Assembly: GCA_030077755.1 (NCBI GenBank)
Contig: JAQJZZ010000007.1
Location: 992,001-1,056,000, forward strand
DNA from: Filosporella fistucella
Lineage: Eukaryota; Ascomycota; Leotiomycetes; Helotiales
DNA length: 64,000 nucleotides
Reading direction: 5' to 3'
A program made the position numbers and the translations under genes. The notes beneath the pieces were generated by a model. It had not been told where the DNA came from. It worked only from the letters and a program-made list of their open reading frames with translations, and searched no databases. Positions 1 through 29,424 of this stretch are shown here, one piece after another (position 1 is the stretch's first letter; each line of letters begins with the position of its first letter).

Positions 1-1
1 G

Positions 2-7209: not shown

Positions 7210-8244
7210 TTATTGCTGTCGCCCCTGTCCATATATGCATTCAATCATTCTTTGCAACTTTTGAAAACCACCCTCCATCGTCCAAACCTTGTCTGCATCA
7301 ACAAATTGATGAGTGTAGCTTTCCCTAAACCCGATGATCCAGACATCGCCATTTTCGTCGAGCAGCACACGGAATGGACTATCACCACCCCATATAACAC
7401 CAGCTTTGTGTAATTGATACAACGTCCTTGTCACTTGATCCACCCATTTTTGTTTGGTGGTCATCGATACTTCTAGGTATTTAGCAGCGCATATCAATAG
7501 ATCAGAGACGTTGATTAGTTCAAGAGTAATCCGAGGAAATCTCCATCTTCATTTTTAACAATTCCTTCTACGTGACAGACCCGAACATCAGGATCTGGAT
7601 TACTCTCCCAAATGCGTTTGTAAGCTGCTATTTCGCGGAGAGCACTCTTTTCTTCATTTCCTCTGAAAAACTTGAAGTAGTAAGTCTTGCCTTGGACAAT
7701 AACCTTACCAGGCGAAGTAGATACCTCCTTGGGGGACCTGGGAACAACCTTAACCTCCCTCGAGTCGAATGAAGGCCAGGAAGGGTCGAAAACCGAGTCG
7801 CCCAAATTGTGACCATCTGGTACATTGCCACATCGGTCGTCTCTCAGCACTGGTGCCATTTCACCCTTCACAGCGCGAATCTCAAAATAAAAGCATTCGG
7901 GATTTATGAAATCGTGAGTGTGGTTGCATGTTCTTGTCCTGGTGTTGGAGCTGGTGCCAATTCCTCGAAGAGAAGGAGACACGGTTTAAGTACCCAATCA
8001 TAAAGTCTTCCGGCGAGGTGTAATATTCTGGGCCTTCATCTCTCAGCCTATTTAAGTTCTCGAGATATTCCGCTTCGAGGAGAGGGGCGTCAGCGAAATT
8101 GTCAGAATGTATCGTGATATAGAAGCACTTTCCATAAAGACGCACTTCAAGTCTTACATCGTTTCCTGTCGGGTGGTAAATCCAGGTGCAATGGCAATGT
8201 GGGGGATCGAAGGAGCCGTCACCATTCTCCTTCTGGGATGCCAT
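7210..8244 (-). pseudogene. Protein-kinase-like gene, frameshifted
   Basis: Three reading frames together spell one member of the large fungal family of kinase-like proteins. They begin with the Met at 8244 (MASQKENGDG), pass to GRLYDWVLKPCLLLFEELAP near 8020-7950, then to FINPECFYFEIRAVKGEMAP, and end as the QLHKAGVIWGGDSPFRVLL segment, stopping at 7210. Moving between them requires three shifts, near 8030, 7910 and 7520. Each has the sense of one missing base, and no GT-AG intron fits at the first or third. The catalytic loop has lost the usual D-K-P-x-N residues and the DFG aspartate is Gly (WIIGF). It therefore looks like a decayed pseudogene. Assembly errors could explain the shifts but not the lost catalytic residues. 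Confidence 0.65.
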
Positions 8245-9379
8245 TTCTTTGAATTTGCAGGTGAGTGTGGAGCGGCGAGGGTGTTGTTTGTGATCGCCAA
8301 GTTGCAAAATATTTCAGGAAGTGGTGCTTCTTGGGCTGAAGAATTGTTTTCTGTTTATTTTCATTCACTCTCGGTCATCAGCTTTTGTTTGTTGGCAGAT
8401 AAACTGTTGCTACCTAATTGTCTCATGTGTCGATAAACCAATAGAAACCACAAGATCATTTTTAACACTCCGGTAAATCGTTCTTTTGCCAGTCAAAGAC
8501 TAGTTCATTCATGGATAAGATAGATACCGAGTTCGACCTTGAATAATATAATACAAATGTAAATTTTGGGTCACCTAAATCGTTATGTTATGCGGCAACA
8601 CTTATCAGCTAGAGCTTCCATACCTGTTCAACTAAGACGGGTAGACCATTGGCAACATTGTTATCATCATGTGTTGCATATCATATATCTTGGCTATCAG
8701 CGAAAATCAATGTCCAACACTCTTCAGTCACTGATAAATTCAGATGGCTGGTTAAGACATACTGGCTGGGCAGCTTACGATCTCAAACACTGTGGCTTAC
8801 TCCTCAGGACAACATGAACACTCAAAAGCACTTCACCTGATGGAGAAAATTTGTGTCATTCATGTCTTTGAAGTTTTTGACAGCATATTCTTTTCTATGA
8901 TAGAATTCAGAGTCGGCATCCACGAAAGCACACTTCAAATCTTCAACGGTGAGCTCAAAAAGCAGACAATACCCTTGAAAATCGCGGGACGTTGTCTATT
9001 TTAAAAGTGCTTGGCAGCAATTAGCTTTCGTCTCCGCTTTCTGGGGGCGGAAAAGTACACTGTCGATTGGTGCAAACATCGAAATGCACAGCCCTAAAGC
9101 CAAAGTTGGGCGTATTTCAGGGGCTAAGCATGGCCTTGGACTCCAGGCTGCGCCGCCCTTGTCACCTTAATTCTCACCTCAACCTCCTTCATCTCCTACA
9201 ACCTTGTCCGTGGTCCCAGATTCTGGTACGAAGAAGACGACCACGATGATTGGGCATGAGTTCAGAGGTTCTCTTGGCAAAGTAGCAGTAGTGTAGGATT
9301 CAGATTTCTCTTTTGTGTTGCTCCTTCGCGCCGCTCGCTGTTTCCTTCCTCCATTTTTGATCCAACTCCAACACCAACA
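8245..9379. other. Intergenic with a possible coding relic
   Basis: 1.1 kb between the kinase-like pseudogene and the first cysteine-rich gene. Apart from the open segment at 8822-8995 on the minus strand, nothing resembles a gene. Confidence 0.45.
8822..8995 (-). pseudogene. Short coding-like relic, family unknown
   Basis: A minus-strand frame of 57 codons lies between stops and reads like real protein (RDFQGYCLLFELTVEDLK, AFVDADSEFYHRKEYAVKNF). No start codon or consistent splice partner was found, and the next stretch has in-frame stops in every frame within about 60 nt. It may be a leftover exon of a decayed gene on the same strand as the kinase-like pseudogene. The call rests only on residue composition. 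Confidence 0.3.
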
Positions 9380-10852
9380 ATGTCGTTACCAAAATTGCTG
9401 GCTGCAGCAACTTTAATATTGTCCCTGTCGGATGTGCTGGCCCATAAAATACCTCGAGAAACCCAAATACATGAGCCCTTAATCACTCCTGGATGGTCAC
9501 CGCGACCGACCGAAGCGCCCAAAGTTGATTTGCGTGAAATTGCAAAACGAGATTATCTTGCGAATTCTGCCGATTATGTCTTAATAGCGCCAGACCAAAC
9601 GTGTGGATATGTTAGTGGATTGGCTGGTAGGTAGAATAAGATTTATACAAAAGCTCTAAGCTAATTATTTCCAGGCGCGGATTTTGCATGCGACAGTTTG
9701 ACTTGCGTTTTCTTTCCTTTGGCATCGACCGCGACTGGATCGACATATGGTGCGGTGGGATGTTGTAAAGATCCTTTGGATTGTGGCTTTAGGACAGCGT
9801 GCGTCGATTCTGCAGCATATTCGGCATCATGCGATGGTGGATGTCAATTGGATACATACACGATGAAATGTACGGAGTCCGCGAAGCCAAATTGTGGAAG
9901 CATCCGATATCGAATACCCCAAGCATCATTCGTGCAACAGTATTATTGTATGAGTGGAACCGCGAGTACCTGGCAGACAGCCTCAACAACTTATAGTGGG
10001 CAAACGGGCCGAGGAACGTTTACGAGTGTGAAACGTGCTGCTTTGGCATCTTCTTCCAGCTCATTGACGAGATCTAGCACAACTAGTGGATCAACCACTA
10101 CAACGACAACTTCCTCTGTCACCAGAACTTCTGCCACAAGATCTTCAACTCCGACACCATCAAAGGAAAGTAAATCCTCGACTCCGGTTGGCGCAATAGT
10201 AGGAGGACTTATTGGAGGAGCTGCGGTATTGGGTCTGATTGGAGCGGGCGCATTTTTCATATACAAAAGAACGAAGAAGACGAATGACGTTTCGCCTGTG
10301 CATACACCACTCAACAATCTCAGTGGACAGCCTCCATCTGAGCTCGGAACCTCATATCAACCAGGTCCTTTTTCACCTCATCCACAGCAAGGAGGATATT
10401 TACCTTATATGTCGAATCAGGTCCAGTATCAACCAGTACTTGCCGAAATGCCTGCAGATCACTATGCACATGAGAAACAGGCCGGAGTTCATGAGTTGAG
10501 TCCATCTCAAGGGTATGTATCAGGCACGAGCCCTTCGTTATCAGTATCACACCCTGCGTCTTCTGGAATCAGTCCCTCTTCAACGATTAACCGACACTCG
10601 ATGTATCCGGAATCTTTGCAGCAACCCGGAAGTCCTCCACCACAACATATTAATCCGTCACAACAATATATGGACAATCCCGCTCAGCAATATGCGGGTA
10701 TACAGCAGCAGCCAGGCAGCCCTCCTCAGCAGTACGCAGGTGGTCCTCAACAATACACAAACAGTCCTCCACAGCAATATGGAGCACCACCTCAACAGTA
10801 TGGGAACCCATCACAGCCCTATATGGGAAATCCCCATCAACCGCACCCGTAG
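9380..10852 (+). CDS. Cysteine-rich single-pass surface protein with QQY-repeat tail
   Basis: Exons 9380-9626 and 9675-10852 give 474 residues. A signal peptide (MSLPKLLAAATLILSLSDVLA) is followed by a cysteine-rich ectodomain (about 75-190) beginning CGYVSGLAGADFAC. A Ser/Thr-rich, probably O-glycosylated stalk comes next, then one membrane span (AIVGGLIGGAAVLGLIGAGA) with a basic stop-transfer KRTKK. The cytoplasmic tail is rich in Pro, Gln and Tyr and ends in QQY-type repeats. The layout resembles fungal wall sensors and receptor-like proteins, but the ectodomain is not a WSC domain I can recognise. The gene at 11583 has the same plan and the same first-intron position, so the two are paralogues. 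Function is unknown. Confidence 0.82.
10614..10850 (+). repeat. Coding repeat: QQY/PP units
   Basis: The last 80 codons of the preceding gene are degenerate repeats around QQY and PP (for example NPAQQYAGIQQQPGSPPQQY). Repeat-length variation between strains is likely at such a site. Confidence 0.7.
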
Positions 10853-11582
10853 ACAATGTAACGTATAACGGATAACGAAGTTATAATTCTTGATTTGGAG
10901 TGTTTGTTTCTGGCGGGAAAATGGTTTATACCTTAGGGAAGAGCATTGCAAGGCGTACGGATACCGGCAGCATCAGCGCGTTGTTTATGGGATATATACT
11001 TCACAGCAACCAGGAAATGTATGAAGGACATGAGAAATACCATTTGGAAATAGCCATAGTTTAGTAGTCTGTAAAATTACATCAGAATTCAGCAAAAGGT
11101 CACGAGTTGTCACTCGTTGTCTCATCGCCCCACTATCTCCTATTTCGTACGGTATCAGAGAGGCTGATTCAAGCGCCAATATATTCCCGTCACAGATGTC
11201 CCAGACATCTCAGATGAATATCTCCTATTTGCCGCTGAAGGAGTTGGCTGTAAGGCGCAGATATGATAGCGTATTTACCAATCAGAAAGGTCGTACTGTA
11301 GACAGGTTTTCTCGGGAGATGTGCGGGTGGAGAATTTGCTTTTTATGAGGCTGAGATTGGGATGGAAGATTGGTTGAGAGTGGGTCTTGATACATGATAT
11401 CTACGCGGGAAAAGAATGGTTTATTGGATGGTGGTGAGACATGTTTTTCGGATTGGTTCTGTCTTGAGAGTGTCTGTCGTAAGTTCAATGCAGGTACTGT
11501 TTGCTGAACGTTCTTATTTCTATCTTCTTGTCGAGTAAATTCTCCTGTTGATCTTAGTTCGCCATCAACGACGTTTTCAAAT
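10853..11582. other. Intergenic between the two cysteine-rich paralogues
   Basis: 730 nt holding the 3' UTR of the first paralogue and the promoter of the second. A minus-strand frame at 11282-11704 overlaps the second gene's start and lacks protein character. Confidence 0.5.
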
Positions 11583-13140: not shown

Positions 13141-14664
13141 CTAATTCCAATAATCCCTCTCCCCTTTCAACATCCCACCAGCCTCCTGCCCCGTCTTCCC
13201 AACCACAATCTTCCCTTTTCCCCTCTTCAAAAACAACCCATCAGTCACCTTCCCTACAATCCCACCCTCATCCCTATCCCAAACTTTCTTCCCCCTCAAA
13301 ATCGTATACCTAGGCCAATTCCTGACATTCATACCCTCATAAGGCGTATAATCAACACCATGATGCAAGTTCTTCTGCTGAATCGTAACGCCATCTTTGA
13401 GATCAGTGTCTGGGTACCAAATTACAAGATCGGCATCATATCCAGGTGCGATGTTCCCCTTTGTCCCTTCTAATCCGTATAATTTTGCTGGGTCAGAACT
13501 AGTCAACTGAACGAATCGCTGAAGAGTCAATCGAGAATCCGGTGCAGCGCCTGCGTAGCTGAATAGAAGCGGGAGTCTGGTCTCAACGCCAGGAACGCCA
13601 TTGGGTATATCTCTATACCGCATCACATCCCCTTTCAAACCCAATTTCTTGCCGCCGACATGGTTATATGTACTCGGTGCGTGATCAGAGGAGAATGTGG
13701 TGAATGTACCGTTTGCGATCCCTCTCCACATTGCGTCTAAATCTTGTGGGTCATGTCGAAGAGGTGGGCTACAGACACATTTTGCGCCTTCGAATTTGTC
13801 TTTTTGGCTCCCTTTCAGCCGTTCCGAGAGTAAGAAAAGATATTGAGGACAAGTTTCTGCGTGAATAGGAAGCATACGTGTTTGGGCTTTTCGCACGTGT
13901 TTCATTGCGATTTCAGAAGACATGTGGACAATCAGTATAGGTGTGTCTGTGAGCTCCGCTAAACTGATAATTCGATATGTAGCTTCATTTTCAGCAATTT
14001 GTGGTCTTGAGATAGCGTGGAAATAAGGATCAGTATGTCCAGCTGCTTCAAGTCTGTCGGTAATGAGAGATATGATGTCGCTGTTCTCAGCGTGGATCAT
14101 GGTCGTGAAACCCAGTGCTCGAGCAGACATGAGAACCTCAAGGAGTTGAGAATCCCCTAGTTTGAGGGGCTCGTAGGTCATGTAGAGTTTTACACTAGTG
14201 ATACCCTGGGCGATGAGTGCCGGCATCTCTTTTGCCATGATATCGGGTGTTGGATTTGAAAGAATGAGATGGAAGCCATAGTCGCAATAAGTTTGATCTT
14301 TGGCTCTCGTATGGTATTGTTCTACGCATGGGAAAACTGAAGATTCGGTTTTGAGTTGGGAGGCAAAGGCTAAGACGGTTGTTGTACCTCCCGCTATGGC
14401 GCTGCGTGAGCCAGTCGTAAAATTGTCTCCCGTTGGACTGTTGTCCTGAGCAAAATGGACGTGTGAATCGACTCCTCCGGGCGTGATATATGCTCCCTTG
14501 GCATCGATGATTTGAGTATCAGGATCTCTGGGTAATGATGTTCCCAGGCAGGAGATTTTGCCTCCTGTGATGCCAATCTCGATCGTAGGGGAGAGAATAT
14601 CACTGGCTGTGACCTTGGAGAGGTTAACAAAAAACTGGGCAAGGTTTTGAAGCCGGTCAATAGG
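13141..14664 (-). CDS. D-hydantoinase / dihydropyrimidinase-like amidohydrolase (5' end unresolved)
   Basis: The minus strand is open from an in-frame TAA at 14667-14665 to TAG at 13143, 507 codons. Cyclic-amidohydrolase landmarks appear in order: VTASDILSP, ITPGGVDSHVHF (metal-binding HxH), SVKLYMTY (the Lys that is carboxylated in the family), MIHAEN, HAETCPQYL, and SSDHAPS (metal-binding Asp). The end is GYDADLVIW and GRRGKKVWD-like strands. The reaction would be ring opening of dihydropyrimidines or 5-substituted hydantoins to N-carbamoyl acids. The core is intron-free. No ATG lies between the stop and the core, and the first in-frame ATG (14238) is past the HxH site. A short upstream exon, a non-AUG start, or loss of roughly 10-20 residues must be assumed. 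The neighbouring carbamoylase and racemase favour hydantoin over pyrimidine substrates. Confidence 0.85.
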   Translation of the reverse strand, partial: PIDRLQNLAQFFVNLSKVTASDILSPTIEIGITGGKISCLGTSLPRDPDTQIIDAKGAYITPGGVDSHVHFAQDNSPTGDNFTTGSRSAIAGGTTTVLAFASQLKTESSVFPCVEQYHTRAKDQTYCDYGFHLILSNPTPDIMAKEMPALIAQGITSVKLYMTYEPLKLGDSQLLEVLMSARALGFTTMIHAENSDIISLITDRLEAAGHTDPYFHAISRPQIAENEATYRIISLAELTDTPILIVHMSSEIAMKHVRKAQTRMLPIHAETCPQYLFLLSERLKGSQKDKFEGAKCVCSPPLRHDPQDLDAMWRGIANGTFTTFSSDHAPSTYNHVGGKKLGLKGDVMRYRDIPNGVPGVETRLPLLFSYAGAAPDSRLTLQRFVQLTSSDPAKLYGLEGTKGNIAPGYDADLVIWYPDTDLKDGVTIQQKNLHHGVDYTPYEGMNVRNWPRYTILRGKKVWDRDEGGIVGKVTDGLFLKRGKGKIVVGKTGQEAGGMLKGERDYWN

Positions 14665-14943
14665 TTAAAGACGAAAATTGAAACGGCAAAAGCATAACCA
14701 AAGAGTAAAACAGGTAGCAAAACCTCGCTAAATCTACTTCAAAATGTAAGAATGACAAAATGCTAAGTTGATATCACAATTACACAAAAACAACTGAGTG
14801 TCTGGACGAACCACAAGTTTTTCAAGAGCAATACCAACAACAAACAGATAGGCATTCAAAGTATGAACAGTAAGGAATGTAGCATGACCACAACAACATC
14901 ACAGCACTCCCCGAGAGAGCAAAAAAAGTAGTTAAAAGCAAAA

Positions 14944-15062
14944 ACATACAACAGCAGGTATTCGCTGGTGGTCACCCACCCAACTACTAATCTGCCGATC
15001 TGAGGCTTGTGTATGGCAGAGCGGACGGGATGCCCAATTCTCCTCAGTCTGTGGTCGTATGT
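14944..15062 (-). rRNA. 5S ribosomal RNA
   Basis: The minus strand reads ACATACGACC at its 5' end (15062), CATCCCGTCCGCTCTGCC in the loop B-C region, and GATTAGTAGTTGGGTGGGTG with GACCACCAGCGAA. It ends GTTGTATGT, which pairs with the start to close helix I. The length is 119 nt, normal for fungal 5S, and a run of T follows at the 3' end, as expected for RNA polymerase III termination. Internal A and C box regions are present and no truncation is seen. It is a solitary copy, matching the dispersed 5S organisation of filamentous ascomycetes, and lies between the hydantoinase and the carbamoylase. Confidence 0.93.
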
Positions 15063-15878
15063 GACAGTGGTAGGCATAAACAGTATTATGTAGGGCGGCG
15101 AAATGAGAGGGTGAGGATCAAAGCGCTATGTTCCTAATTCAGCTGCAGGATGGTATCGGCGATCAAGGACGCAAAGAAAGTGAACGCATCGATTGACCAG
15201 CACGCCTCTCTTAATTTGACAATACTCTTGATTCCATAGAAATCTAATAGCTATCGTGTCTAGACACACTTGATGCCAGAGTAGAAAGGGAACACCGAAC
15301 CACCACTGTGACGATTAGTCACGTGATATATCTAAACAGTAACGTCGAGGCGTGTTTGGTGTCATTGGAATCCTCAGATGCGCACGATCTATTCTCTCAG
15401 AATTCGGAAACTTTAAATGCAGTATCAAATGCAACCTCTCCCAGAACTAGCGGCAGAAAAGTAAGGATAAAAGCAGTTGAATCCATCTACTTGGATGGCT
15501 TTGTCCAACAAAATGATAGCACTCTAACACGCAAGCGAGAACGAAAAGGGGAAATTCAACATACAATAATGCCATTCGTCACAATCAAATCAAACCCCAT
15601 CATCTCAACCCGGTTTGCAAGTTGATGCAATCTCGATCCAACAAAATGCTCGTAAAAAGGCGCAAGCTGAACGATCAAAATATGAGAAAACACAAAAGCA
15701 GAGCCTCCTCCTAGCTCTCCATCCCATCTTTCCCAATTCCATCCTAACTAGCAATCTCGCCTTCTTCTAGCAACAAAGTTGGCCTTCGGTCGATTTGCTT
15801 GTCTCCTTTCGACACGAAGTCATCATGTTCTCCACCAACAATCACCAACAGCCATGGCAAGGATTAGGGTGTCAGAGT

Positions 15879-15891
15879 TGGCCGACGGCCA
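15879..15891. promoter_or_regulatory. CCG-N1-CGG palindrome
   Basis: TGGCCGACGGCCA is a 13-nt palindrome with everted CCG/CGG triplets, the type of half-sites read by Zn2Cys6 factors. The flanking AGTTGGCCG also occurs within the palindrome at 18583-18599 in the racemase/regulator promoter. Confidence 0.35.
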
Positions 15892-15926
15892 GCAGGGATG
15901 CTCGCCTCGTGGCGGCATATGCATCT

Positions 15927-15937
15927 CGATAAGATAG
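15927..15937 (+). promoter_or_regulatory. Pair of GATA sites
   Basis: CGATAAGATAG holds two overlapping HGATAR elements about 280 nt before the carbamoylase start, consistent with an AreA/Nit2-type nitrogen regulator. Binding is inferred. Confidence 0.35.
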
Positions 15938-16213
15938 GGAATGGGCGTATTCTAGGAGCTCAAAGGCTTCAAAGATGGGGTCGGAACAATGATTTTCTGG
16001 AACATGGAAGGCCAACTATGTTTCCGCCCCGCGTTGAGATACTAGACGGCGAATTGTAAGTGGTGGCCGATATGAAGCTCAAGTGAGGCTGTTGAAAAGT
16101 GCTGCAACCAGCTGTTGTATTTCCTCAAAACCAACGTCTAGATCTCGGTCTGAAGCTCTTCTTCTTCTGGTTGAAAGCAAGACGCTCAAATTGGAAGATA
16201 CCAGATTATAGCT

Positions 16214-17245
16214 ATGCCTCGGACACTCAAAATCGCTGCTGCTCAACTGGGCCCAATTCATCTCACGTCCAAACGAGAAGAGACTATCTCTCGCATGCTT
16301 GCTCTTCTCCAACAAGCTTCTTCTCTCGGCGCCCAAGTTGTCCTCTTCCCGGAAACAGCATTCACCACATTTTTCCCACGCCATCTCATTGCTTCGCAAG
16401 TAGATCTTGATTCGTATTTCGAACACGGAAATGATTTGCCTTCTGCAACCAACACGAAGCCTCTTTTCGACGAAGCGAAGAAGTTAGGTGTCGATATCTC
16501 TGTTGGATTCGCGGAAAGAACGAGCGAGGGACAAGGATACAATACCAGTATATATTACTCGGCCAAGAAAGGAGAGGTGATTGCGAAATATAGGAAAGTG
16601 CATCTTCCTGGCACCAAAGAGCCTTTTGAGAACCCAGATGCGGTAAATCAGCTAGAGAAGCGGTATTTTGAGCCTGGAAATCTAGGATTCAAAGCTTTTA
16701 GAGTACCAGATGTGGTACCTGGTGCTCTGAAGAAAGGAGCTGAATCAAAAGCCGGACTAGGTGATCCGATCATGGGCATGATGATCTGTAACGACAGGCG
16801 TTGGGCAGAAGGATGGCGATGTTATGGCTTACAGGGTGTAGAGATTGTGCTCTGTGGCTACAACACTGCTGGGTGGGCGCCTGATCTCTGGGGAACACGG
16901 AAACCAATGACACCTGAAGAGGCAGAAGTTGACGCAGTATTCCACCACAAACTGGTTATGCAAGGCAATTCGTACATGAACAGCTGTTTCTCAGTCAGTG
17001 CTGCAAAAGCAGGTATGGAAGATGGGAAATATGACTTGATTGGAGGAAGCTGTATCACAAGTCCAGAAGGGCATGTGTTGGCCGAGGCGAAGACTAAGGA
17101 TGATGAAATTGTGTTTGCGGAGATTGATTTGGAGGACTGTAGACAAGGGAAGGAGAAGACATTTGATTTTGACAGACATCGGAGGATTGATCAGTATGGG
17201 CCGATCACTACACAGACCGGAGTTGTTGAGCCGGAGTATCTATGA
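16214..17245 (+). CDS. N-carbamoyl-D-amino-acid hydrolase (nitrilase superfamily)
   Basis: An intronless 343-residue protein. The nitrilase-fold triad is visible: Glu in VLFPETAFTTFFPR, Lys in AKYRKVHLPG, and Cys in MMICNDRRWAEGW. LEKRYFEPGNLGF, a YNTAGWAP segment, HHKLVMQGNSYMN and SCITSPEGHVLAE complete the D-carbamoylase pattern, which strongly recalls the bacterial enzymes. Length is slightly above the bacterial norm (about 304) because of insertions near residues 130-150 and a C-terminal extension. The reaction is hydrolysis of N-carbamoyl-D-amino acids to D-amino acid, CO2 and NH3, the step after hydantoinase. It is divergent from the hydantoinase and convergent with the racemase. The strong bacterial resemblance and lack of introns suggest possible ancient transfer. 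Confidence 0.9.
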   Translation: MPRTLKIAAAQLGPIHLTSKREETISRMLALLQQASSLGAQVVLFPETAFTTFFPRHLIASQVDLDSYFEHGNDLPSATNTKPLFDEAKKLGVDISVGFAERTSEGQGYNTSIYYSAKKGEVIAKYRKVHLPGTKEPFENPDAVNQLEKRYFEPGNLGFKAFRVPDVVPGALKKGAESKAGLGDPIMGMMICNDRRWAEGWRCYGLQGVEIVLCGYNTAGWAPDLWGTRKPMTPEEAEVDAVFHHKLVMQGNSYMNSCFSVSAAKAGMEDGKYDLIGGSCITSPEGHVLAEAKTKDDEIVFAEIDLEDCRQGKEKTFDFDRHRRIDQYGPITTQTGVVEPEYL

Positions 17246-17483
17246 GCAAACCTAATATATTAAAATAGACATAGAAATCGAAGATTGAAAGCACGTGAAT
17301 AAGTCTGAGATGTTGCGAAGCAGTCAATGTGTTGTAAAAAAAAAAAAATGGACAGACCTTGCTGTTGTTGGATGTGAAGTTAACTTTCGACAAGTTTACA
17401 GAAGTGAAGCTCTTTCATGTGATTGTTGCAATTGAGATCATATAATGAAGACAAAATGGGTTTACATATTGAGATATTGAAAA

Positions 17484-18281
17484 TTATAACCAGGTCTGAC
17501 CTCTCGCTTTCCTTCCTTGTTGAGAACTTCTGAACATGCCTCCTTTCGCGGTAACATGACCCTCGCGCACCAGTCCAATCAAAATCTGTACTCCGACCCC
17601 AACCCCATCGATTACCTGTGCTGTAGCATTCTTCGAGTCAACGGCCTCTTCACATTTGATCTTCATCTCTGTCATTCCAGCACATCCAAGAGTAATGCAA
17701 TCTGCACCCTTTTCTTGCACTAATCTCCTCGCAGCTTCTCCGACTAGACCCAGTACCTTATCTCGAGGTAAAGTCTCAAGCTCCAAAACCCCCAAATTTG
17801 TTGTTTCACAGCCTACTGAAAAACCTTCGAGACCGTAATTCCTGATAGCATCCTCGTGCATGATCTTACTCCTTCCTCCTGTTGCCACAACACCGAGTCT
17901 GTTTCCTAGCATGCGAGCAGAATATAGAGCAGCTTCCATAATGCCAATAACAGGCCCAAAAAGCTCCTCTCTTAGAGCATTTATGAGAGGATGAGCGCTG
18001 AAACACGCTACTAGAAAAGCATCATAATTTGAAGCAATTGGAACCACTCCACGAATAGCTGCTGCTGCAGAGAGAACACCATCGAGGTGACCTTCAATGG
18101 CTGAAGGAGTTGGATGTGGTGATGTGAATCCTGTGACTGTACAATGGGGTGGAAGAGTAGTTTCGAGAGACCGCAGACATGCCTCCGTCATAGACGATGT
18201 GCCATTGGGATTTATGAGGAGGATATTGATAGTTTTGGTGGAAAATCCCGTTACTGATGGAAGTGATACAGACTCGGACAT
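17484..18281 (-). CDS. Asp/Glu/hydantoin racemase family protein
   Basis: An intronless 265-residue protein, a normal family length. The open frame runs back to 18548, but the ATG at 18281 is chosen because the conserved fold starts 20 residues later with NILLINPNGTSSMT. The two catalytic cysteines are visible in FLVACFSAHP and ITLGCAGMTE, and VIGIMEAAL and NRLGVVATGG mark the family. In bacteria these enzymes racemise 5-monosubstituted hydantoins; yeast Dcg1 belongs here too with unclear function. Placed beside the hydantoinase and carbamoylase, it would let both hydantoin enantiomers enter the pathway. It shares a 678-nt divergent promoter with the Zn2Cys6 regulator. Confidence 0.88.
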   Translation of the reverse strand: MSESVSLPSVTGFSTKTINILLINPNGTSSMTEACLRSLETTLPPHCTVTGFTSPHPTPSAIEGHLDGVLSAAAAIRGVVPIASNYDAFLVACFSAHPLINALREELFGPVIGIMEAALYSARMLGNRLGVVATGGRSKIMHEDAIRNYGLEGFSVGCETTNLGVLELETLPRDKVLGLVGEAARRLVQEKGADCITLGCAGMTEMKIKCEEAVDSKNATAQVIDGVGVGVQILIGLVREGHVTAKGGMFRSSQQGRKARGQTWL

Positions 18282-18582
18282 GTTGGCAGTGTAAGGAAGC
18301 CTAACAGATTCTGACAATTGAGCCCGGGTATCAGGTAGGAGGTTTCTGAAGAACAATTCAGCGACAAATAAAGGGGGAATTAGCCGAGTTGAATAGGGGC
18401 AATATCCGCGTCGAATAGACACTCTTAATTGCACAATAACAGCTGCAAAAATCGACCAACAGAAGAAACAAAATGAATCTGCCTGAAGCTCAATAAAAGT
18501 GACGTTATACGAGGCTCTGCATAGAATTGCCATCCAGCATTGGTCCAACCTCCACCATCCTCACCTCACCCACAATGTGATA

Positions 18583-18618
18583 ACGGCCAAGTTGGCCGTA
18601 AAATGGAGCGGTCCGCTC
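18583..18618. promoter_or_regulatory. Two adjacent CGG/CCG palindromes
   Basis: ACGGCCAAGTTGGCCGT (18583-18599) is a perfect 17-nt palindrome holding CGG-N9-CCG. GAGCGGTCCGCTC (18606-18618) is a 13-nt palindrome holding CGG-N1-CCG. Inverted CGG triplets are the classic target of dimeric Zn2Cys6 proteins, and one is encoded next door. Autoregulation and control of the racemase are inferred. Confidence 0.45.
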
Positions 18619-18828
18619 AGCTGCTCAGTGGCTTTCAAAGGCCCCGCATTCAATGCAACTGTTGTCTTCGGTCACGAAACAAAAAAGAATGGATTACTTT
18701 GTCTTCCCCGACAACTGTTATTCCCGTTTGAATCCACATTCTTTTTGGATAGAGATGTAATATTGCGAATAAGGGCGTCGGTGTTGCGCGAAGAAGCTTA
18801 GGATACACTACAGCACAGACGATCACCC

Positions 18829-18857
18829 CGATAAGCTCACAGCTGCGCGACGATAAG
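18829..18857 (+). promoter_or_regulatory. Two CGATAAG (GATA-factor) sites
   Basis: CGATAAG occurs at 18829-18835 and again at 18851-18857, about 100-130 nt before the regulator's ATG. Closely spaced GATA pairs are typical of nitrogen-catabolite-controlled fungal promoters. Confidence 0.4.
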
Positions 18858-18959
18858 CACAACCCCAGGCTTTGCTTTTTCTGGAGACGCAGAATCACCG
18901 CACCACAGCGGCAGCATTGCACTCTCTGTCCGACCGACCTCCCCTCGAGATCTCATCCC

Positions 18960-21295
18960 ATGGACAATTTCACAACTTCGCTATCCCCCACAGATTTCTA
19001 CCATGGAATAGGGGATTTGAACCAGCAGCTCCAGCCCGAGCCTATCCAGGCCGGTCCGCGAAGCTATAAATCGCGAAAGTATCGGCCGTGTGACTTTTGT
19101 CGAGCCCGTCAGGTTGCATGCAAGATTGAGAGTGAACCTCCTTGCGCGTTGTGTTCTAGCCATAATCACGAATGCACATTCGTCCAGCGGCCAAAGAAGA
19201 AGAGGAGACCGAATTCAACAAGCAATGGGGAGCTTAGTGGGTCGCAGATACCAGGTAGCTAGCATTCACAGATTCAATTGCTTGAGTTGTCGCTGGGGAC
19301 AAATGCTAATGCCTTTTCGTACAGCTCCCATACAACCTTACGATCCTTCGGTTCAATTGAGTCCCGCCTTTATTGCACAATACAACCATGAACAGCAGTT
19401 CAATGGCCTCAATAATCTTAATGGGCATGATCACTTAGACGCCCAATCGTCTCCGAACCAACTCCACCACCAAGATGCCTTGTATGATCCCTTTCTCCAG
19501 ATGTTACCCGGCGGAGTTCGAATACGACCATTGGATTCTCAAAGCACTAGGTCTGCGAGATTCATAGGAGAAACAGGAGAGTCGAATCCATACCTGCTAC
19601 GGCACTACCGATACGATGACAATGATGAGTGTACCGTCTCGAAATTGACATACCGTCGAATCAAAAGTTCATTAAACCAAAATATACTTCCAGGCGAGAA
19701 AGGGGAACCGCCAGTTGTGTTCATGCTAGCAGATGATTCTCTTGCTCAAAAAGGAGAGCCCAGAGTTGAGGACGATGTCCTGGCAAAGGCTCGTTCGGAC
19801 ATTGTTGGCATGTTCAATGAGCAAGAAGCATTGAGACTAATTGGCCTCTTCTTTCGCTTTGTATACCCATACTTTCCTATACTGTCCAAAAACGAGTTCT
19901 ATCACAACAACCTTGTATCACCATCCGTTCTTAGCAGTACACCTTTGAGTCTCCTGTCTGCCATGTACGCTACCAGTCTGCCCTTCATTGTGTATGATGA
20001 TCTCCTTTCAACCACACTTGTTCACTCGCCACCACCGGCCCACCAACTGTTTCGAATAGCATGGCTTTCGGTCACTCAGGAACTCCATACTCCGAGGCTG
20101 GCAACAGTACAGGCTTGTTTGCTATTACTTCAGCGTGCTCCTACCAATCGGTATACTACTGATACCCCTTGGAAGACAAGTCTTGTTGGATGGACTGTAA
20201 GCTTGGCACAAACGTTAGGTCTTACCAAGGAAGTTCGTAATTTTTTTCTTCCCATACTTCTTTCTCATGCTATATGATTTCCATTTCGACCTCACTTTCC
20301 GTGAACGATCTAACACTTTATATGATGCTGACTGTCTTTTAATAGTGTAGTGACTGGACAAGCATACCAACATGGGAAATGTCACTAAGAAAGCGAATTT
20401 GGTATGGTGTTCTTATAATGGACAAATGGGCTTCACTTGGAGCTGGTATGCCGAGTCATATACGGACAGACGACTTTGACGTTCTCCCACTGACCGACTC
20501 GGATCTTGAGCCACCATCCGTGGATCAGCACTCGAACTCAATTCCCGGTTTCCTTGAGCCAGAAGCAGACACAAATCACTTCAGACTGTTATCTGAACTT
20601 ACCATGATTTTGGGTGATATCATGGATAAATATTACTCCCTCCGAGCTACACAGCAAACATCAAAAGACTTTTCATTGTCACTGGACCTAGCACGACCCC
20701 TGAGGTCGAGGTTAAAGGCTTGGAATGATTCCTTACCTCCTGCTTTGGCACTGAGACAGCCAGAAAGATCCGATGGGAGGGGTATCACTCGACTGAGTGG
20801 GAATCCGTCCCTGTCATTAGCCTACATTGTTGCCAACATGACTCTTTACAGAGCTCTGTTGAGACCTCTGGAGAATCTAACAAGTGTTGAAGAGGAGAGT
20901 CATGGCATTGTTGGTAGTCGGTTGGCAGTGAGGGCTGGTGCTAAAGCATGCGCCAGGGAGGTGGTCGAGTTCGTCGGTATGCATTTCATTTCTTAGCGTC
21001 CCTTAGCAAGGACCTAAAGTAAATTCTCCTACTGATTATCACAGAAAACCTCCCACGAGGAAGTCCCGACGCCTTTTGGCACAGCTGGTCCCGCGCAAAC
21101 TTTGCAATCGCCTCTTCGTTCCTCGCACAACTGCTCGTGACTTCCGAGACAGAAGAGGAAAAGAGTGAGATCAAGGATCTAGTCGCAAAATGGAGATGGG
21201 CAATGCGACTTGGGAGTGGCAACACAGGAAATGGCTTAATGAGCTTGGGACTCTTGAGATTGGATGGCATGCTGTTGGAAAATGGGGCCGTATAG
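18960..21295 (+). CDS. Zn2Cys6 transcription factor, candidate cluster regulator
   Basis: Exons 18960-19254, 19325-20232, 20346-20976 and 21045-21295 give 694 residues. The binuclear zinc cluster is CDFCRARQVACKIESEPPC with ALCSSHNHEC (C-x2-C-x6-C-x7-C-x2-C-x6-C) at about residues 44-71. The basic stretch RPKKKRRP follows. The middle holds the fungal-specific factor domain, with LFFRFVYPYFPILSKNEF, VQACLLLLQRA, SLVGWTVSLAQTLGL, and RKRIWYGVLIMDKWASLGAGMPSHI. This layout is typical of GAL4-like activators of catabolic genes. Introns 2 and 3 are GT-AG; the one after LGLTKE is 113 nt. Its place between the racemase and permease, with palindromic CGG sites in its own promoter, suggests it controls the cluster. 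Confidence 0.88.
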
Positions 21296-21639
21296 GCTGT
21301 GGCTCTGTGTTGTAAAAGCGAGGAGTTGAAGGAAATTAAACACTTGGGGCGATAATGGTTGGGTGGCAATAATCATACGTTATTTTGAACGATCAAATTG
21401 AGAATGTATTGGTCGCTACTCTTCCTCCACATTCTACTTTCATGCAAGTTCGTCGTTATTGTCTTTTATAAAGCCCTATTCTGTTGCTGCCGCTCCATGC
21501 TGTAAGTTTTCACAAGTCCACTCAAAATCTCTAAAAACGCTTAATTGGCGACAGGGAAACTTATATCGAAAGTCAGTAACGGATGCAACATCCAATTGTT
21601 ATGGATAAGAATATCTATCTCCACCTCTCAATTCTTAAA
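21296..21639. other. Intergenic, convergent 3' ends
   Basis: 344 nt between the regulator's stop and the permease's stop. Nothing is seen. Confidence 0.5.
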
Positions 21640-23482
21640 CTAAAAGTTCCTCGCCTTCTCACCCCCCGCACTCTTCACAACTTCCTGATCACTCTGCTCA
21701 AAATTCGAATCACTCCTATCCACTCCATCCATAATCTGGCTCTCATCAAACTTATCTTCCATCGGCCAGATCTTGCCTAATAACGTGTACACAGCAAGAG
21801 CAACCAAAGTGCCAATCAACCAACTCAAACTATAAACATAAGATGCTCCAACGGGTACATTCTTCTTCCCCGTCGCCTTCGCCAATCCTGCAAGATTAGG
21901 CGCAATACCACAGATGAAAGCTGCAACAGCGCGAAGATTGACACCATGGAAAAAAGAATATGTATCTGGGTGACGATACAGCGAGGAGAGATTCAAATGA
22001 CGATTCCTCAAAATCCAAAAATCAGACATCATTATCCCGGCTATGGGACCAAGAAACATGGAGTAACCGCCTAAGAAAGCGGAGAAACTGGCTGCAGAAT
22101 ACTGGATATTCCATGGCGTAGCAGCAATGGAAATAATACAGCATACATAAGCGCCTCTCCTCGCATTGATCCAGGTCGGGAACCAGAGTGCGAGATCATT
22201 GGAGAAAGAGACGGAATTCGCAGAGATATTCGTCCCGATGACGGCAAATGCCCAGCAGAGAGCTGAGAAGAATTGTGCTGCCCGATTTTCCCATAGCAGA
22301 GAGACTTGTAGCGGGTTCCAGGTCGTGACGCCGTAGACGGATTGACAAGCTGATGTTACTGTTATACCGAGGATACCGCAGAGCGTGACGAGAACACAGA
22401 GACCGACTGCCTGTGTCCAGAAGACTTGACGGGGGTATTTGGCATAGCGTGTGAAGTCAGGCATGTTAAGCGCAAGTGTAGCTTTCGGTCCAATGGTGGT
22501 AGTTACGCACTGGAAGAATACAATTACGACTGGCGTTCCATCTTTGATGTTTGTTCCTTTAGAGAAAGTAGGGCCGAAGCCTTTGGCGGCTACGAGGGCC
22601 CAGATGAAAAGTGTCATGCCGAAGATGGGCATTATGATCGTTTTTACCATGAAGAGGTATCGAAGCTTAGAGACGTGGAGGTATAGGAGAGGAAGCTGGA
22701 CAATGATGAAGAGGAAAAAGCAGAGCATTTGGGCGGAAGTTACGTGTGCGCTTAAGGGTATGTGATTCCTGTTCCATGTTAAAATTCAATTCATTTCGAG
22801 ACGGAGGTGCACTTACGGAAAGTTTTTGAACGATGGCCAGATAGCTTGAAGCATAGTCTGAACACATTGTCCACCCTGGAAACTTTGTGTTCCGAACCCT
22901 GGATTTCGTTAACAATTTTGTTTTCTAGTGCAATTGGACTATAAGACTTACAGATACATGCCACGACACCTCTAACAAATACTGCAAAATAGGCTCCGTA
23001 TATTCCGAACGTTGATCGCATCAAAACAGGGAAGTTGATACCATAGATACAACCAACGTAGCCGTTCAACATCGCGGGTATACAGACAAGTAAATGCCCA
23101 ACTATGACTGCGGTGATGGCAAGTCCGGGACTGAGACCTTTTGTGATCGAGGAAGAAGCTACTTGATACACTGCAAATATGTTAACAACGTTCTCCTAAA
23201 ATCATAATTGCGGTGATGTTTGAATTTAGTGAGTGGCATGATTTAGAAGTGTCCCAATCAATTCCCATTTATCCCCAAAGCATAAAAATTCGATAACTTA
23301 CTAGAAATACTAAATGCCTCTGCAATCCAGAATCCCAGTAGAGATGGCCATGTCCACTTCCTCTCTTCTGATTCAAATGGCACAGGGTCTAGATCCCTGT
23401 TTGAAGCGATTCCATCGCTCCCTGTGGCGAATGAACCAGGTGTAGGTCTCAACCTGAGCCTTTCGACGATCCCGATTGCCAT
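21640..23482 (-). CDS. NCS1-family permease (uracil/allantoin/hydantoin class)
   Basis: Exons 23482-23302, 23170-22952, 22898-22817 and 22768-21640 give 536 residues. The N-terminus NRDLDPVPFESEERKWTWPS is the Fur-type NCS1 signature. Hydrophobic spans follow with the NCS1 landmarks GLSPGLAITAVIVGH, GINFPVLMRSTFGIYGAYFA, WFGTQSFQGGQC, GPKATLALNMPDFTRYAKYP, GTNISANSVSFSNDLA and MFLGPIAGIMMSDFWILR. About twelve membrane spans are expected at the plasma membrane. Known members carry uracil, allantoin or, in bacterial Mhp1, 5-substituted hydantoins, by cation symport. The gene order makes hydantoin import the best guess. The first intron is 131 nt; the others are near 50 nt. It shares a 1.48-kb divergent promoter with the A-T-R enzyme. 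Confidence 0.9.
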
Positions 23483-24963
23483 TATTCTTACTTTCCCGCT
23501 CGGAATATCTTCTTTGCGGTATTAAAGGTGTTTTGTTAAAATTCTGGCACGTGCCTGGCTAAAGGGAATTGAAGCTGCTAAGATAATTGACCTGGTCCCA
23601 CTCTTGCTGACTGAAGAATTTTTCATCAACGCACAGAACAAATAGCACAACTGCAAAAGGAACACAATTATTCGATGAACATTCGGGATGAAGGTAACAG
23701 AAAAGATCAAAGAGGAACATGAAAGTATACACTTATGCTTTTCGAGATGCAGTTATCAGATCATGTATTGATCATTGCTGTTAGTAGAACCAACAGTACC
23801 ATTCTTCAGGGGTGGTGTTCCCTATCTCTTGGCTAAAGTGCGAATGCTACTGAAGGGGAATTAAAAGTGGATAGCAAGGTTCCCATGTTGAGAACAAACC
23901 GACTCAATTGAGAGGGTAATCCTTATCGAATCTTATCGTGATATCAGAATGTTATCAACGGGAAAGAGAAATAGCTTCTTAGCATGACTTCGACTTGAAG
24001 CTGCCCTCGCGGCAAACAGAGCTCTCGAGTTCCCTCATATCTTGCCCTTAACGGCTGATTGAGGCGGATAAAAGGAAGAGGGGTTTGATATCGACCCATT
24101 TGAGCCCATTATTGAACGTTTTCGTAAGTGGACCAATTGATATGGGTCTTCGACAGTTGTTGGAACAAGGACTCCGGGCAACCTATCACAACCTCGATAG
24201 CAACGAGGAATGAAAGAGAAACCAACATTCTCAACTTATCAGCAAATCAGTGCATTGATGAATTGCCCGAGCCAATGTCATGTTGCCCGTAGATTAACAT
24301 GTGGCAACAAGGTTTCCAGCAAGCGATGAACCCCGTCCCAGCACAACGGACTTGCATCTTCGCATCTTGCATCGGCCCCGCACTCAAGCTCGATTTCCAA
24401 CACCCAGCGATGCCGCCCACCAAGTCGATAAGCCATCAACGACGGGGAAGATCATTAAGCCGAGCAGACCAAGTCAGACTTTACTGCATTTCAGCCCTTT
24501 GAGAAAACACACCATGATGCGCGAGCGAGCGGATAGAATAGAGCCCGCTACCATCATGGCACTCGCCGAACGGCCTAGCCTAGGCAATCATGGCGGTAAA
24601 AGGAACAATTCCAAGTGGATATTCGGCCATGCCACGACCGTCTTATCCTTCGATTCGTGGATAGGGGCGTAGGTCCACCACTATCTGCTCCCTGGAGCCT
24701 CTCCCCGTTCACAGGGTCCAGTTTGAGTTGACCGTTGGCTTGTCGGACAAGATACCAAGGTGAAGCGAGAGGTCATGGTGAGTGTGGAGATTTGCTTGGT
24801 GTTGAGGAATGTGGTTATTAGTGGCTGTAGTCTTTGTGATACCTTAGTATCTCTTCTCGAGGTGGGTTTCAGCATTTCCCTCTCAATAGGGGCTTTTATG
24901 TGTTGGTCATTTGTCTTGTCACGGACTTCATTCATGAAATAGCATCTTACACCATCCTTGACC
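23483..24963. promoter_or_regulatory. Divergent promoter, permease / A-T-R enzyme
   Basis: 1.48 kb without a convincing gene. It contains a GATA cluster about 440 nt before the permease ATG (23922-23957) and a GCCGAACGGC element (24565-24574) with everted CCG/CGG triplets about 390 nt before the A-T-R start. Confidence 0.5.
23922..23957 (-). promoter_or_regulatory. Triple GATA-site cluster
   Basis: CTTATCG, CTTATCG and GTTATCAA within 36 nt are three minus-strand HGATAR elements oriented toward the permease. Such clusters are usual targets of AreA/Nit2-type activators of nitrogen-source transporters. Binding is inferred. Confidence 0.45.
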
Positions 24964-27900
24964 ATGGCTCCGATGTTACTAGACTCACTTGATACCCCTT
25001 CGTACGACTTCAGTCCTATAAAATCTATCCCAATATGTTCTGATCCATCTGTTGTGCCGTCGGAAGCCGCATCTAAAAGCACGAAAGAACTCTGGTGGCT
25101 TCATGGCCACCCTCATTCAAAAAGATACTCGGATCCTAAACTTGTCACCTTAAGTGCGCTTTTAAGGCATGATGGGGCTGTCTATAAAGGTCAAAAGGGA
25201 TTTTTATATCCAAGAACAGCGAAGCCGTCAACTCCATACGATTCAATGACATGGGATGAATTTGATCGAGCAACAGAGTCAATTGCTTTGCTTTATGCTC
25301 AAAATCTAAGGATGGAATTGGAAGACGCCAATGTCTCTAGAAAGCAACCTACAATAGCACTTTTGGGGGGAGGAAAGACCTTGGAGTACTTTTGTACTGA
25401 ATTGGCCCTTCAGAAACTCGGTGTCAGAGTATTGCTCTTAGCCGAGTCCAATGCACCAGAAGCCCTACATCACTTACTGAAAACCTGCCACGCTTTAGCG
25501 GTTATCACGGATTCGAAGAATTCCTTTACAGGTACGAATGGCGTTCGGAAGCTGGACATGATAGAGGCTCTCCCAGAGGCTCATGATGTGAAAGCTTTTG
25601 AGAAAGTCGAGGCACTCAAATTTCAGGATTTTGGTGATTTGTGGGAGAGACATTCATTTATCATCCACTCCTCAGGCTCAACGGGCATCCCGAAGCCCAT
25701 AATACATACAAACAGAAGTATGATGCTCATTGCGAGAATGTATCGATTATTCCAGGAGTTTGATGTGAAAAATTGGTTCTTGCTGTTCCCGTTGTAAGTT
25801 TCTTCCACGTTGCCAAATGACGAAGTGACTGATATATTAGATATCACATCGCTGGAATCTCAATAGCACTCTCAAATTTACCTAACGGCCAAATTCTGTC
25901 ATTTCCACCACTTTCTTGGCCACCATCCTCATCTTCCATCTTTTCAGCATGGAAGACACTTTCTGGAATGGGTCATCCAGTTGACTGCGTCCACTGCGCA
26001 CCAACCTTGATTGAAAATATGTTCGAATATATCTCAGAGAATGGAGGAGATTTCAGTCCACTTGTTTCCTTAAAATTACTCCAACCAGGTGGAGCAGCAC
26101 TCTCTGAAAGCATAGTGTCAGCTTTGACGTCGAAAGGAGTCAACGTGAAGACCACCTACGGTAGCACCGAAATTGGCCCTCCGTTTCGCTCGATACCTCA
26201 CACAAGAGATAATCCAAAGTGCTACACATTCCGGAACCTATATCCTGATAACTCAAATCTGAAGATGGAGGAAGTGGGAGAGGGATTGTATGAATGTGTT
26301 GTGTACAAAGGATTTGAGCTTGCAGCTGAGTTGTGGGAAGGAAAGTCCGAAAATGAACCCTACCGTACAAATGATCTCTTCATCCAAGATCCTCCTGGGA
26401 GCGGCTTCTTCATCCTCCAGGGACGGAAAGATGATATTCTTGTCCATACGAATGGAGAAAACACTACGGCAGGACCGTTGCAGCTTGATATCCAAACCGC
26501 CTCGAAATTGATCAATAAAGCGGTTGCTCTGGGACACTCTAGGCCAAATGTTGGACTTCTTGTGGAATTACATGAAGAGTATGATCGTCAGGATAGTTTT
26601 GTCCAGGAAAGAGTCTGGAATGCAGTACAGGAAGTTAACGCTCGATACCCCACCCATTCACGGATTTTACGTTCTATGATATATATCTTACCGGAAGGCG
26701 AAACCCTCCCAGTAACGCCGAAAGGCAACGTCAAACGAAAAGAAGTAGAACGTATATACGCTTCTGAGATCGCGGATATGTACTCTGACCCCGTTTGCAC
26801 GAATGGCAATTCTATTCTTTCACCTACCGGCCCTTCAGCACAACCACTCTCAGAATACCTCCGAGCGCTCTTCTCGTCACTTTCCAATACGCCCGCTTCA
26901 GAAATCAAAGACTGGACAACCCTCTACGATCTAGGAATCGATTCCCGTATCGCAATTTCTCTCCGCTCATCCCTCTCATCACATCTCTCCCGCCCAGTTT
27001 CACTCAGCGCAATCTTCGAGCATCCATCCATCTCCTCTCTCTCAACCTATCTCTCACCTCAATCCTCAAATGCATCACCATCTGCCCCAACAAAACCATT
27101 TTCCCACGAGACAATAGCACGAATCCTCTCCCGTCTCCAAACAGAGATAAAATCTTGGCCTGCAAGAGAAGAAAAAACTTGGCCAGAAGCAGAGAAACAT
27201 ACTGTTCTCCTCACAGGTGCCTCTGGATCGCTAGGTACTGCTCTTCTGGAGGTACTGTCTGCATCGCCAGCAGTGGAGAAGATATACGCTATGATTCGTG
27301 GCCCGAACAATATTCAGAAACTCCGAGACTCGCTTGAGAAGAGGGGAATGAGTACAGCCATACTTGAGGGAAGTAAAATTGAGATATTGAACTTCAGTAT
27401 GCGGGATTCATTGTTGGGGGTGGATATAGAGACATATTATAAATTAGCAAAGACAGTGACGGTCGTGATAGGAAATGCGTGGAAGATGGATTTTAATCTG
27501 GGTGTAAAGGAGTTCGAGGGAGATTGTATCAGGAGTGAGTGTTCTTCCTTGAGGCTTTCCGCACAATGTGTTCTGGTCGAGCGAATGTGTACTAATGATC
27601 ATGGGTTGTAGATACCATATCTCTCCTCCGTCTTACTCAGACAGGTCGTCCCAAAATTCTAGCTTTCACATCTAGCATCTCAACATGCATGGGCACGGGT
27701 CCTCAAGCCGTCTCGGAGGAACCGATTGGAGATGATCCGTCAGTTGCTCTTTCAACGGGATACGCACAGTCAAAATATATAAGTATGTTGCCCTTTTATC
27801 GCGCCCCCCTTTCCAATACGTCTCCATCCCAAACTAACATTTCCAAGTCGAGCGCCTTCTCCAATCCTCTCCCTCCCCCACCCTCCTCCTCCGCGTCGGT

Positions 27901-28530
27901 CAACTCTGCGGACACACACGTACCTCCCACTGGAACCCCGACGAAATGTGGCCCATCCTCTTCTCATCTTCTCTCCACCCCTCAATCAATGCCTTTCCTC
28001 TCCTAAACCACAAAGCCGTCGATTGGATACCTGTTGATATTGCTGCGGGAACAATAGCAGATCTCCTGCTTCAGAGTAACAAAGAGCATGGTCGAGAGGA
28101 GAAAGCGTATGAGGTGTTTAATATAGTTAATCCGAAGAGAGTATCTTGGGAGGAAGTGCTGAAGATGGTGGGAGATGCTGCTATAGGACCACTTGCCCCT
28201 ACCTCACTTGGGGCAGAACTAGATTCCAATGTCAGCACACCACGCCTTCCATACCCCTCAACTACCACGCTCTCAGCATGGACATCTCTCCTCAACAACG
28301 CAGCACAGAACGGCATTTCTCCTACCGAGTTACCAGGCTTAAGACTCCTAGCTGTGTTTGAAGAGATGGCTGCTGCGTCTGAGCAAGGGGAAGAACCAGA
28401 AAACGAAAAGATCTTTGAGACGGCCAAAACTGAGAAGATTAGTGATTGTATGAGGGACTGTGAGGCAGTTAATAAAGGCTGGATTGAGGGAAATGTGATG
28501 GTTTGGAGGAAGATGGGCTTTATGAAGTGA
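24964..28530 (+). CDS. NRPS-like adenylation-carrier-reductase (A-T-R) enzyme
   Basis: Exons 24964-25793, 25841-27534, 27612-27782 and 27848-28530 give 1125 residues. Residues about 30-560 are an adenylation domain with IHSSGSTGIPKPIIHT, TTYGSTEIGPP, YRTNDLF, LQGRKDDILVHTNGEN and a final Lys in PVTPKGNVKR. A carrier domain follows with the phosphopantetheine serine in LYDLGIDSRIAI. The C-terminal third is a thioester-reductase domain with an NADPH motif VLLTGASGSLG and catalytic YAQSK. There is no condensation domain. Such enzymes activate a carboxylic or amino acid and release it as an aldehyde. The start at 24964 has an ideal ACCATGG context. Sharing a promoter with the permease suggests its substrate may come from the hydantoin route, which is speculative. 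Confidence 0.9.
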
Positions 28531-29424
28531 TGGTGTTTGGAATAAGAGGGCAGTGGAGGAGGTATGGAATTGGCAATAAGAGTGAGGATGAGGAGTTGCT
28601 TGAGATGATTTTCTGAATATACCTAAGCTAAATTTTGATAAAATGTCAGCCATAACCTATCTTTTGATTGACTTGTATCACCAAAGGCGTCTTCAACTAT
28701 GAAAGGTGGAGGGCCGCTGAACCCCCCTGTCATCACCACTGGGACAAAAAAGTTTGTTATGAACAGTGCTATCAGATTCTGCCAAAGGTTGAAGAAAGTA
28801 GAAGCAAGAGTTGAAGAAAGTAGGAGTAAGGATTGAACTTCTGATTGGTTAAGGTATGTGGTATGGACTCATAGAGCAGGTTGGTTTGCTGGAAGCGATT
28901 GCTGTAGGAGAAGCTGTACGGGAATCCTTTTTCGTTCACTAGGAGAACTTCGTTCCTCTCGCCTCCTTTTGTAGGTTTCAGACTTTTAAGTCAAAATCCA
29001 TGCTATCTATCAACTGCTTTTGGTATGCTATAATACATTGCTAAAATCAACGCCTCGAAAACTTTTCATAAAATCCATCTAGATAACTTTAAAAGAGTGT
29101 AAAACCAACTCAAACTCAGCGCCAAACAAACCCAGAACAAACAGAGAACCCCGTCGCAATGAATCACGCAAGATAGGTACAAGATCAGAACATAATAGTC
29201 GTCCAAAATAGTTTTGGTTTTCGAACAAAGAAACAAGGATTGCCGCCGATGTATGCTTCGCCGTGATCGCCATCAGCATGTTTCACTTTACTCCCTGCCT
29301 CTCCCAATTCCATACCCTTTGTATCTAGATGGCAATACTTATATTCTTTTAGAAGAATGCTTTCCGCATTGCAAGTGAGCCTGCTTCACATAAGCTATGA
29401 CTCCTTGAGACTATATCTAGTCAC
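28531..29424. other. Intergenic, no gene seen
   Basis: 894 nt between two convergent genes, AT-rich. No supported feature. Confidence 0.5.

Follow-up and report, generated by a model that had tools for sequence, protein, structure and literature searches.

A putative hydantoin-catabolic gene cluster with its own Zn2Cys6 regulator in the ascomycete Filosporella fistucella

Five adjacent genes of the helotialean fungus Filosporella fistucella, at positions 13141-23482 of a 64-kb stretch of DNA (the window, which lies in contig C6 of a genome of 45.8 Mb and 19 contigs), encode a hydantoinase/dihydropyrimidinase-family protein (HYD), an N-carbamoyl-D-amino-acid hydrolase-family protein (DCASE), an Asp/Glu/hydantoin racemase-family protein (RAC), a Zn2Cys6/Fungal_trans regulator (TF) and an NCS1-family permease (NCS1). 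The genes are real and intact, and they are likely to be parts of one regulated catabolic unit. By a slight balance of the sequence evidence, the unit would serve for the breakdown of hydantoins substituted at position 5, or of cyclic ureides very close to these.

The pathway that we infer, from its substrates and order of steps to its stereochemistry and regulation, would run as follows. The permease would import the ring compound, and RAC, by two-cysteine chemistry, would interconvert its stereoisomers. The metal-dependent HYD would open the ring, generating an N-carbamoyl amino acid; DCASE, a cysteine amidase of the D-carbamoylase type, would remove the carbamoyl group, leaving a free amino acid (probably in the D form), ammonia and CO2, the whole providing a nitrogen source. 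TF would recognize an element of the AGTTGGCC type in both divergent promoters of the cluster and activate, as a minimum, its own gene and those of the three enzymes.

Bacterial hyu systems comprise a D-hydantoinase, a D-carbamoylase, a hydantoin racemase and an Mhp1-type permease. The fungal cluster draws on the same enzyme families and on the NCS1 permease family; by family, its hydantoinase, carbamoylase and racemase genes are adjacent and accompanied by a transporter, which is the composition by which a hyu cluster is recognized. The first-pass annotation of the window, which had every hyu role matched, is right at this level. The cluster differs from its bacterial counterparts in being eukaryotic, in its five genes of alternating orientation, in its Zn2Cys6 regulator and in a carbamoylase with Gln in place of His143; the three fungal enzymes share ~27-55% identity with the bacterial relatives that were set against them. 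A more ambitious version of the same proposal, a complete eukaryotic hyu regulon with its own Zn2Cys6 regulator, a dedicated AGTTGGCC-type operator (its extended forms near-unique in the genome) and a Gln-type carbamoylase yielding D-amino acids, is less likely than not. Like the first-pass annotation, we know of no characterized fungal counterpart with the full set and its own regulator.

If hydantoins are indeed the substrates, this fungus can live on racemic mixtures of them, with a dedicated and regulated route like the bacterial one. Eukaryotes would then be added to the sources of the stereoselective hydantoinases, carbamoylases and racemases with which D-amino acids are made, and the cluster could serve for testing whether such gene clustering is convergent or transferred; one would also have to ask which hydantoins fungi encounter in nature.

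Organization of the cluster

Gene models were built from stop-to-stop frames and the sequence, with splice sites assigned by hand. All five frames are intact and the introns are GT-AG. HYD (13141..15603, minus strand; 503 aa) is assembled from exons 15603-15565 and 14613-13141, separated by a GT-AG intron at 15564-14614. The intronless DCASE gene (16214..17245, plus strand; 343 aa) diverges from it across a promoter of 610 bp between start codons (15604..16213). RAC (17484..18281, minus strand; 265 aa), also intronless, diverges in the same manner, across 678 bp between start codons (18282..18959), from TF (18960..21295, plus strand; 694 aa), whose exons are 18960-19254, 19325-20232, 20346-20976 and 21045-21295 and whose second intron has the uncommon donor GTTCGT. 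NCS1 (21640..23482, minus strand; 536 aa; exons 23482-23302, 23170-22952, 22898-22817 and 22768-21640) completes the set. The cluster ends drawn in the first-pass annotation are thereby explained: 13141 belongs to the HYD stop codon and 23482 to the NCS1 start codon. Its statement that five genes lie side by side is confirmed by the intact frames and the recognition of all five families, and no unrelated protein gene was recognized between them, as it had also held, the intervening short open frames not having been scanned against families.

The long HYD frame lacks a start codon; the short first exon, joined to it across the 951-nt intron, completes an N-terminus like those of its relatives. 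A broken hydantoinase gene was considered and rejected, since this short exon, with its GTATGT donor, exists. The intron also holds a 5S rRNA gene (14943..15062, minus strand, the same as HYD; RF00001, 72.8 bits), one of a type with at least 27 dispersed copies in the genome.

Chance clustering of the five genes is unlikely because DCASE has no second full-length match in the 45.8-Mb genome (one weak partial match was found) and the nearest paralogues of RAC and HYD are on other contigs.

Families and catalytic residues

The family assignments made in the first pass hold up, both by sequence matches and by retention of catalytic residues. HYD scores 417.6 bits with TIGR02033 (exon 2 and 17 upstream codons of open frame; cut-off 393.25), a model that covers D-hydantoinases and dihydropyrimidinases alike, and 222.4 bits with an allantoinase model, far under the latter's cut-off of 357.85. 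(Hydantoinase_A is, as we understand it, a different hydantoinase/oxoprolinase family.) Aligned to yeast dihydropyrimidinase 2fty and D-hydantoinase 1nfg, HYD keeps H64, H66, K155, H187, H243 and D323, which we take to be metal ligands (K155 being the carboxylated Lys), and it also has Y160, S295 and N351, presumably substrate contacts. Its identity to bacterial proteins (48%) is about the same as to its own paralogue (50%).

DCASE exceeds the cut-off of the CN hydrolase model PF00795. Every one of the eleven solved proteins nearest to it is an N-carbamoyl-D-amino-acid hydrolase (236-249 bits, best E 8.1e-73); the next, labeled nitrilase or beta-ureidopropionase, scores 59.1 bits. DCASE retains E47, K128 and C192, which we take to be the catalytic Glu-Lys-Cys, and the Asn-Asp-Arg-Arg motif N193-R196.

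RAC matches PF01177 above its cut-off, with 176.1 bits (E 1.1e-51), and entries labeled putative hydantoin racemase or allantoin racemase are nearest to it by sequence among solved structures (E 2.3e-21). In an alignment of 8 sequences 16 columns are invariant, and Cys93 and Cys200, the two cysteines of the active site, occupy two of these. Structure models of modest confidence only repeated the sequence results for DCASE and RAC: D-carbamoylases are nearest to the DCASE model, at ranks 1-19 (pLDDT 65.5, 20 sequences), and allantoin racemases, at 29-30% identity, hold ranks 1-5 for the RAC model (pLDDT 79.0, 8 sequences), with OpaE (9qbx), an atypical fungal family member, at rank six with 15% identity.

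NCS1 matches PF02133 above the cut-off, with 357.2 bits over profile positions 2-440 of 440. Just two solved matches are listed for it, both of them Mhp1 hydantoin permease entries (E 1.2e-17), which are too remote to settle its specificity. W134, Q138, N341 and N345 align with Mhp1 Trp117, Gln121, Asn314 and Asn318, which we take to be ligand residues that other NCS1 transporters keep too; the match is distant and the region of the second Trp aligns poorly. TF exceeds the cut-off of PF04082 (Fungal_trans). The Zn_clus model PF00172 is unlisted for full-length TF at E 0.001 but reaches 23.5 (cut-off 21) when exon 1 is taken by itself; residues 44-72 read CX2CX6CX7CX2CX6C, which fits CX2CX6CX5-12CX2CX6-8C.

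A common element in the two divergent promoters

The AGTTGGCC 8-mer occurs at four sites in the window, and all four are inside the two divergent promoters, three between HYD and DCASE and one between RAC and TF. The HYD/DCASE promoter carries two copies of a longer element, AAGTTGGCCTTCGGTC (15776..15791, plus strand) and GAGTTGGCCGACGGCC (15875..15890, plus strand), and a third AGTTGGCC core (16010..16017, minus strand). The RAC/TF promoter carries a 17-bp palindrome, ACGGCCAAGTTGGCCGT (18583..18599), that includes the core. The number of sites is unremarkable (4, with 1.85 expected; 10 of 100 shuffles reach 4) and their placement alone is notable. The consensus of copies 1 and 2, RAGTTGGCCKWCGGYC, has those two as its sole matches in 45.8 Mb, and a reversed-pattern control gives 0. 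The 15-bp palindrome core, CGGCCAASTTGGCCG, is found twice genome-wide. One site is in the RAC/TF promoter; the other (C18:813472; L108:4973) precedes by ~400 bp an EamA-family transporter gene, whose start was placed by eye, with no evident link.

Bacterial relatives

With DCASE as the query, 185 relatives were returned from a scan of species genomes, of which the best 80, mostly from Bradyrhizobium, were examined (46-51% identity by tblastn). The set is redundant, so that counts of neighborhoods are not independent events, and the flanks extend up to 8 kb, some of them partial. RAC matches are found in the flanks of 54 of these loci and HYD matches of any kind in 23 (13 of them full-length). 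HYD itself was searched for in the genomes of 8 of the 80 loci, with a match in each (best 51%), and the four regions around the top matches (L119-L122), from three of the 8 genomes, were inspected. In L122 (Bradyrhizobium) relatives of the carbamoylase, racemase and hydantoinase lie within 4 kb, together with a flavin reductase gene.

Another Bradyrhizobium locus has a different composition: in L062:8001-15134, genes for a Gln-type carbamoylase relative, an amino-acid ABC importer, a polysaccharide-deacetylase-family protein (a weak PuuE match), a racemase and a dihydroorotase-like protein are consecutive. Two carbamoylase-family genes are close together in 9 of the 80 loci (L035, L039, L043, L049, L091, L092, L094, L099 and L104), none of them titled Bradyrhizobium.

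Pathways encoded elsewhere in the genome

Predicted genes for pyrimidine-type and for allantoin breakdown are separate from the cluster. Contig C9 has a dihydropyrimidinase-type paralogue of HYD (L024:8804-10000; 414 aa aligned at 53% identity). An intron interrupts the metal-binding HxH of this paralogue, a motif that appears to be present by splice sites read by hand. A beta-alanine synthase relative (L025:4614-5618; best solved match 1r3n, 255.5 bits) lies on the same strand at a distance of ~4-5 kb, and the two presumably resemble the pyrimidine/beta-ureido pair of other fungi. Hemerythrin-like and P450 genes lie between them, and an FAD monooxygenase gene is also in the vicinity. C9 further holds a second beta-alanine synthase relative and the one distant RAC paralogue (35%). 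On C3 there is a third HYD relative, for both exons of which the allantoinase model is the best match (176.2 and 262.1 bits), and C17 carries two allantoicase matches next to each other. At least two genes match PF01180 (on C9 and C14), the one on C9 being dihydroorotate dehydrogenase-like by eye; a dihydropyrimidine dehydrogenase may be present as well. Paralogues of NCS1 are numerous, with 40% identity for the nearest.

These separate genes, with the kept residues, some of the bacterial neighborhoods and the common promoter element, support the single pathway that the first-pass annotation had proposed. It also named D-amino acids as the output from racemic hydantoins, which is unproven, because the family of HYD includes dihydropyrimidinases, RAC is nearest to allantoin racemases, and DCASE has Gln for His143.

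Alternative readings

A number of observations weigh against a hydantoin pathway. HYD scores 548.4 bits with the subfamily model PRK13404 (NF009941), missing a cut-off of 647 that its bacterial relatives in L122 (772.8) and L119 (784.2) pass, and its best solved match is a dihydropyrimidinase (2fty, 364 bits), followed by D-hydantoinase 1nfg (320 bits). DCASE has Gln146 at the position of His143 in the D-carbamoylase 6le2, a residue that we take to be a substrate contact; Gln occupies this position in all 80 aligned bacterial DCASE relatives, and the carbamoylase relative of L122 retains His. Since Gln146 replaces this His, the substrate of DCASE may differ from that of D-carbamoylases, and we speak of a carbamoylase-family relative, not of a proven D-carbamoylase. 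All 13 full-length amidohydrolases near the bacterial DCASE relatives are just 25-29% identical to HYD, and the one that was typed, in L062, is dihydroorotase-like (679.4 bits, cut-off 482). The full enzyme set is absent from three of the four HYD-match regions (L120 has only a racemase, L119 and L121 neither partner), and matches to the fungal NCS1 or TF were found in none of 84 bacterial loci (the 80 DCASE loci and the 4 HYD regions).

The promoter data are subject to similar discounts: the patterns were picked after the sites had been seen. TTGGCCG has 10 matches in the window, 3 of them in the two cluster promoters, and 7 of 100 shuffles reach 10. The joint pattern, at up to 3 mismatches, is no commoner than chance (8 found, 10.86 expected), and of 4881 region pairs drawn at random, without restriction to promoters, 158 share some 8-mer as exclusively. 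No exact AGTTGGCC precedes NCS1, whose promoter has one single-mismatch site, at 24725, among 19 such sites where 12.0 are expected. The permease is the member of the cluster least supported by promoter data.

The main rival, which we judge unlikely though it has to be taken seriously, is a cluster for another cyclic ureide, allantoin-like or an unnamed heterocycle, of a build like the yeast DAL cluster and with an amidase acting on a different ureido acid. The DAL (allantoin) cluster combines an amidohydrolase, an NCS1 permease and a hydantoin-racemase-family gene with allantoicase and malate synthase. The first three are together in both clusters; DAL has no D-carbamoylase, and in this genome allantoinase and allantoicase are encoded outside the contig of the cluster. 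Affinity of RAC to allantoin racemases, matches of the NCS1 exons to NCBI allantoin permease models (below their cut-offs), the Gln of DCASE and the association in L062 of a DCASE relative with dihydroorotase-like and polysaccharide-deacetylase-family genes all speak for such a substrate. The scores of HYD, nearly twice as high with the D-hydantoinase model as with that for allantoinase, and the uniform D-carbamoylase identity of the eleven best solved DCASE relatives speak against it, as do the separate allantoinase and allantoicase genes.

Breakdown of pyrimidines and beta-ureido acids, with HYD as a second dihydropyrimidinase and DCASE cleaving products of the N-carbamoyl-beta-alanine type, is improbable. 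Yeast PYD2 and PYD3 are a dihydropyrimidinase and a beta-alanine synthase, and HYD is a distant homologue of the yeast dihydropyrimidinase 2fty, its best solved match; that TIGR02033 puts D-hydantoinases and dihydropyrimidinases under one model also favors this reading. Its standing is reduced by the other dihydropyrimidinase-type gene near a beta-alanine synthase relative, since the pair of the PYD2/PYD3 type in this genome sits on C9. Moreover, the carbamoylase of the window is nitrilase-type and not, as we label the PYD3 type, peptidase-M20-type, and it scores up to 249 bits with D-carbamoylases as opposed to 59.1 with the best beta-ureidopropionase entry. A racemase would be useless on achiral dihydrouracil, as a matter of established chemistry.

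That the five are neighbors without a common pathway, as the permease's lack of the promoter element might suggest, is a shade less probable still: the enzymatic roles fit together, the element is common to both divergent promoters, and relatives are co-localized in some bacteria. Least probable of all, and very much so, is a natural-product cluster in which the enzymes trim a ureido or hydantoin intermediate of the nonribosomal peptide synthetase (NRPS)-like gene next door: AMP-binding, carrier and reductase domains directly beside the permease, and ketopantoate-reductase-family and short-chain-dehydrogenase frames 9-12 kb to the left of the cluster, would suit it, but a Rad51-family frame intervenes on the left, the long frames scanned to the right, as far as 42000, are SRR1, RING finger and DUF726, and no exact AGTTGGCC precedes the NRPS-like gene.

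Surrounding genes

The NRPS-like gene that adjoins the permease extends over about 24943-28530, and its reductase domain is NAD-binding. The other long frames that were scanned (27000-42000 and 1-11000) are a mixture of housekeeping types, together with one reductase and one dehydrogenase.

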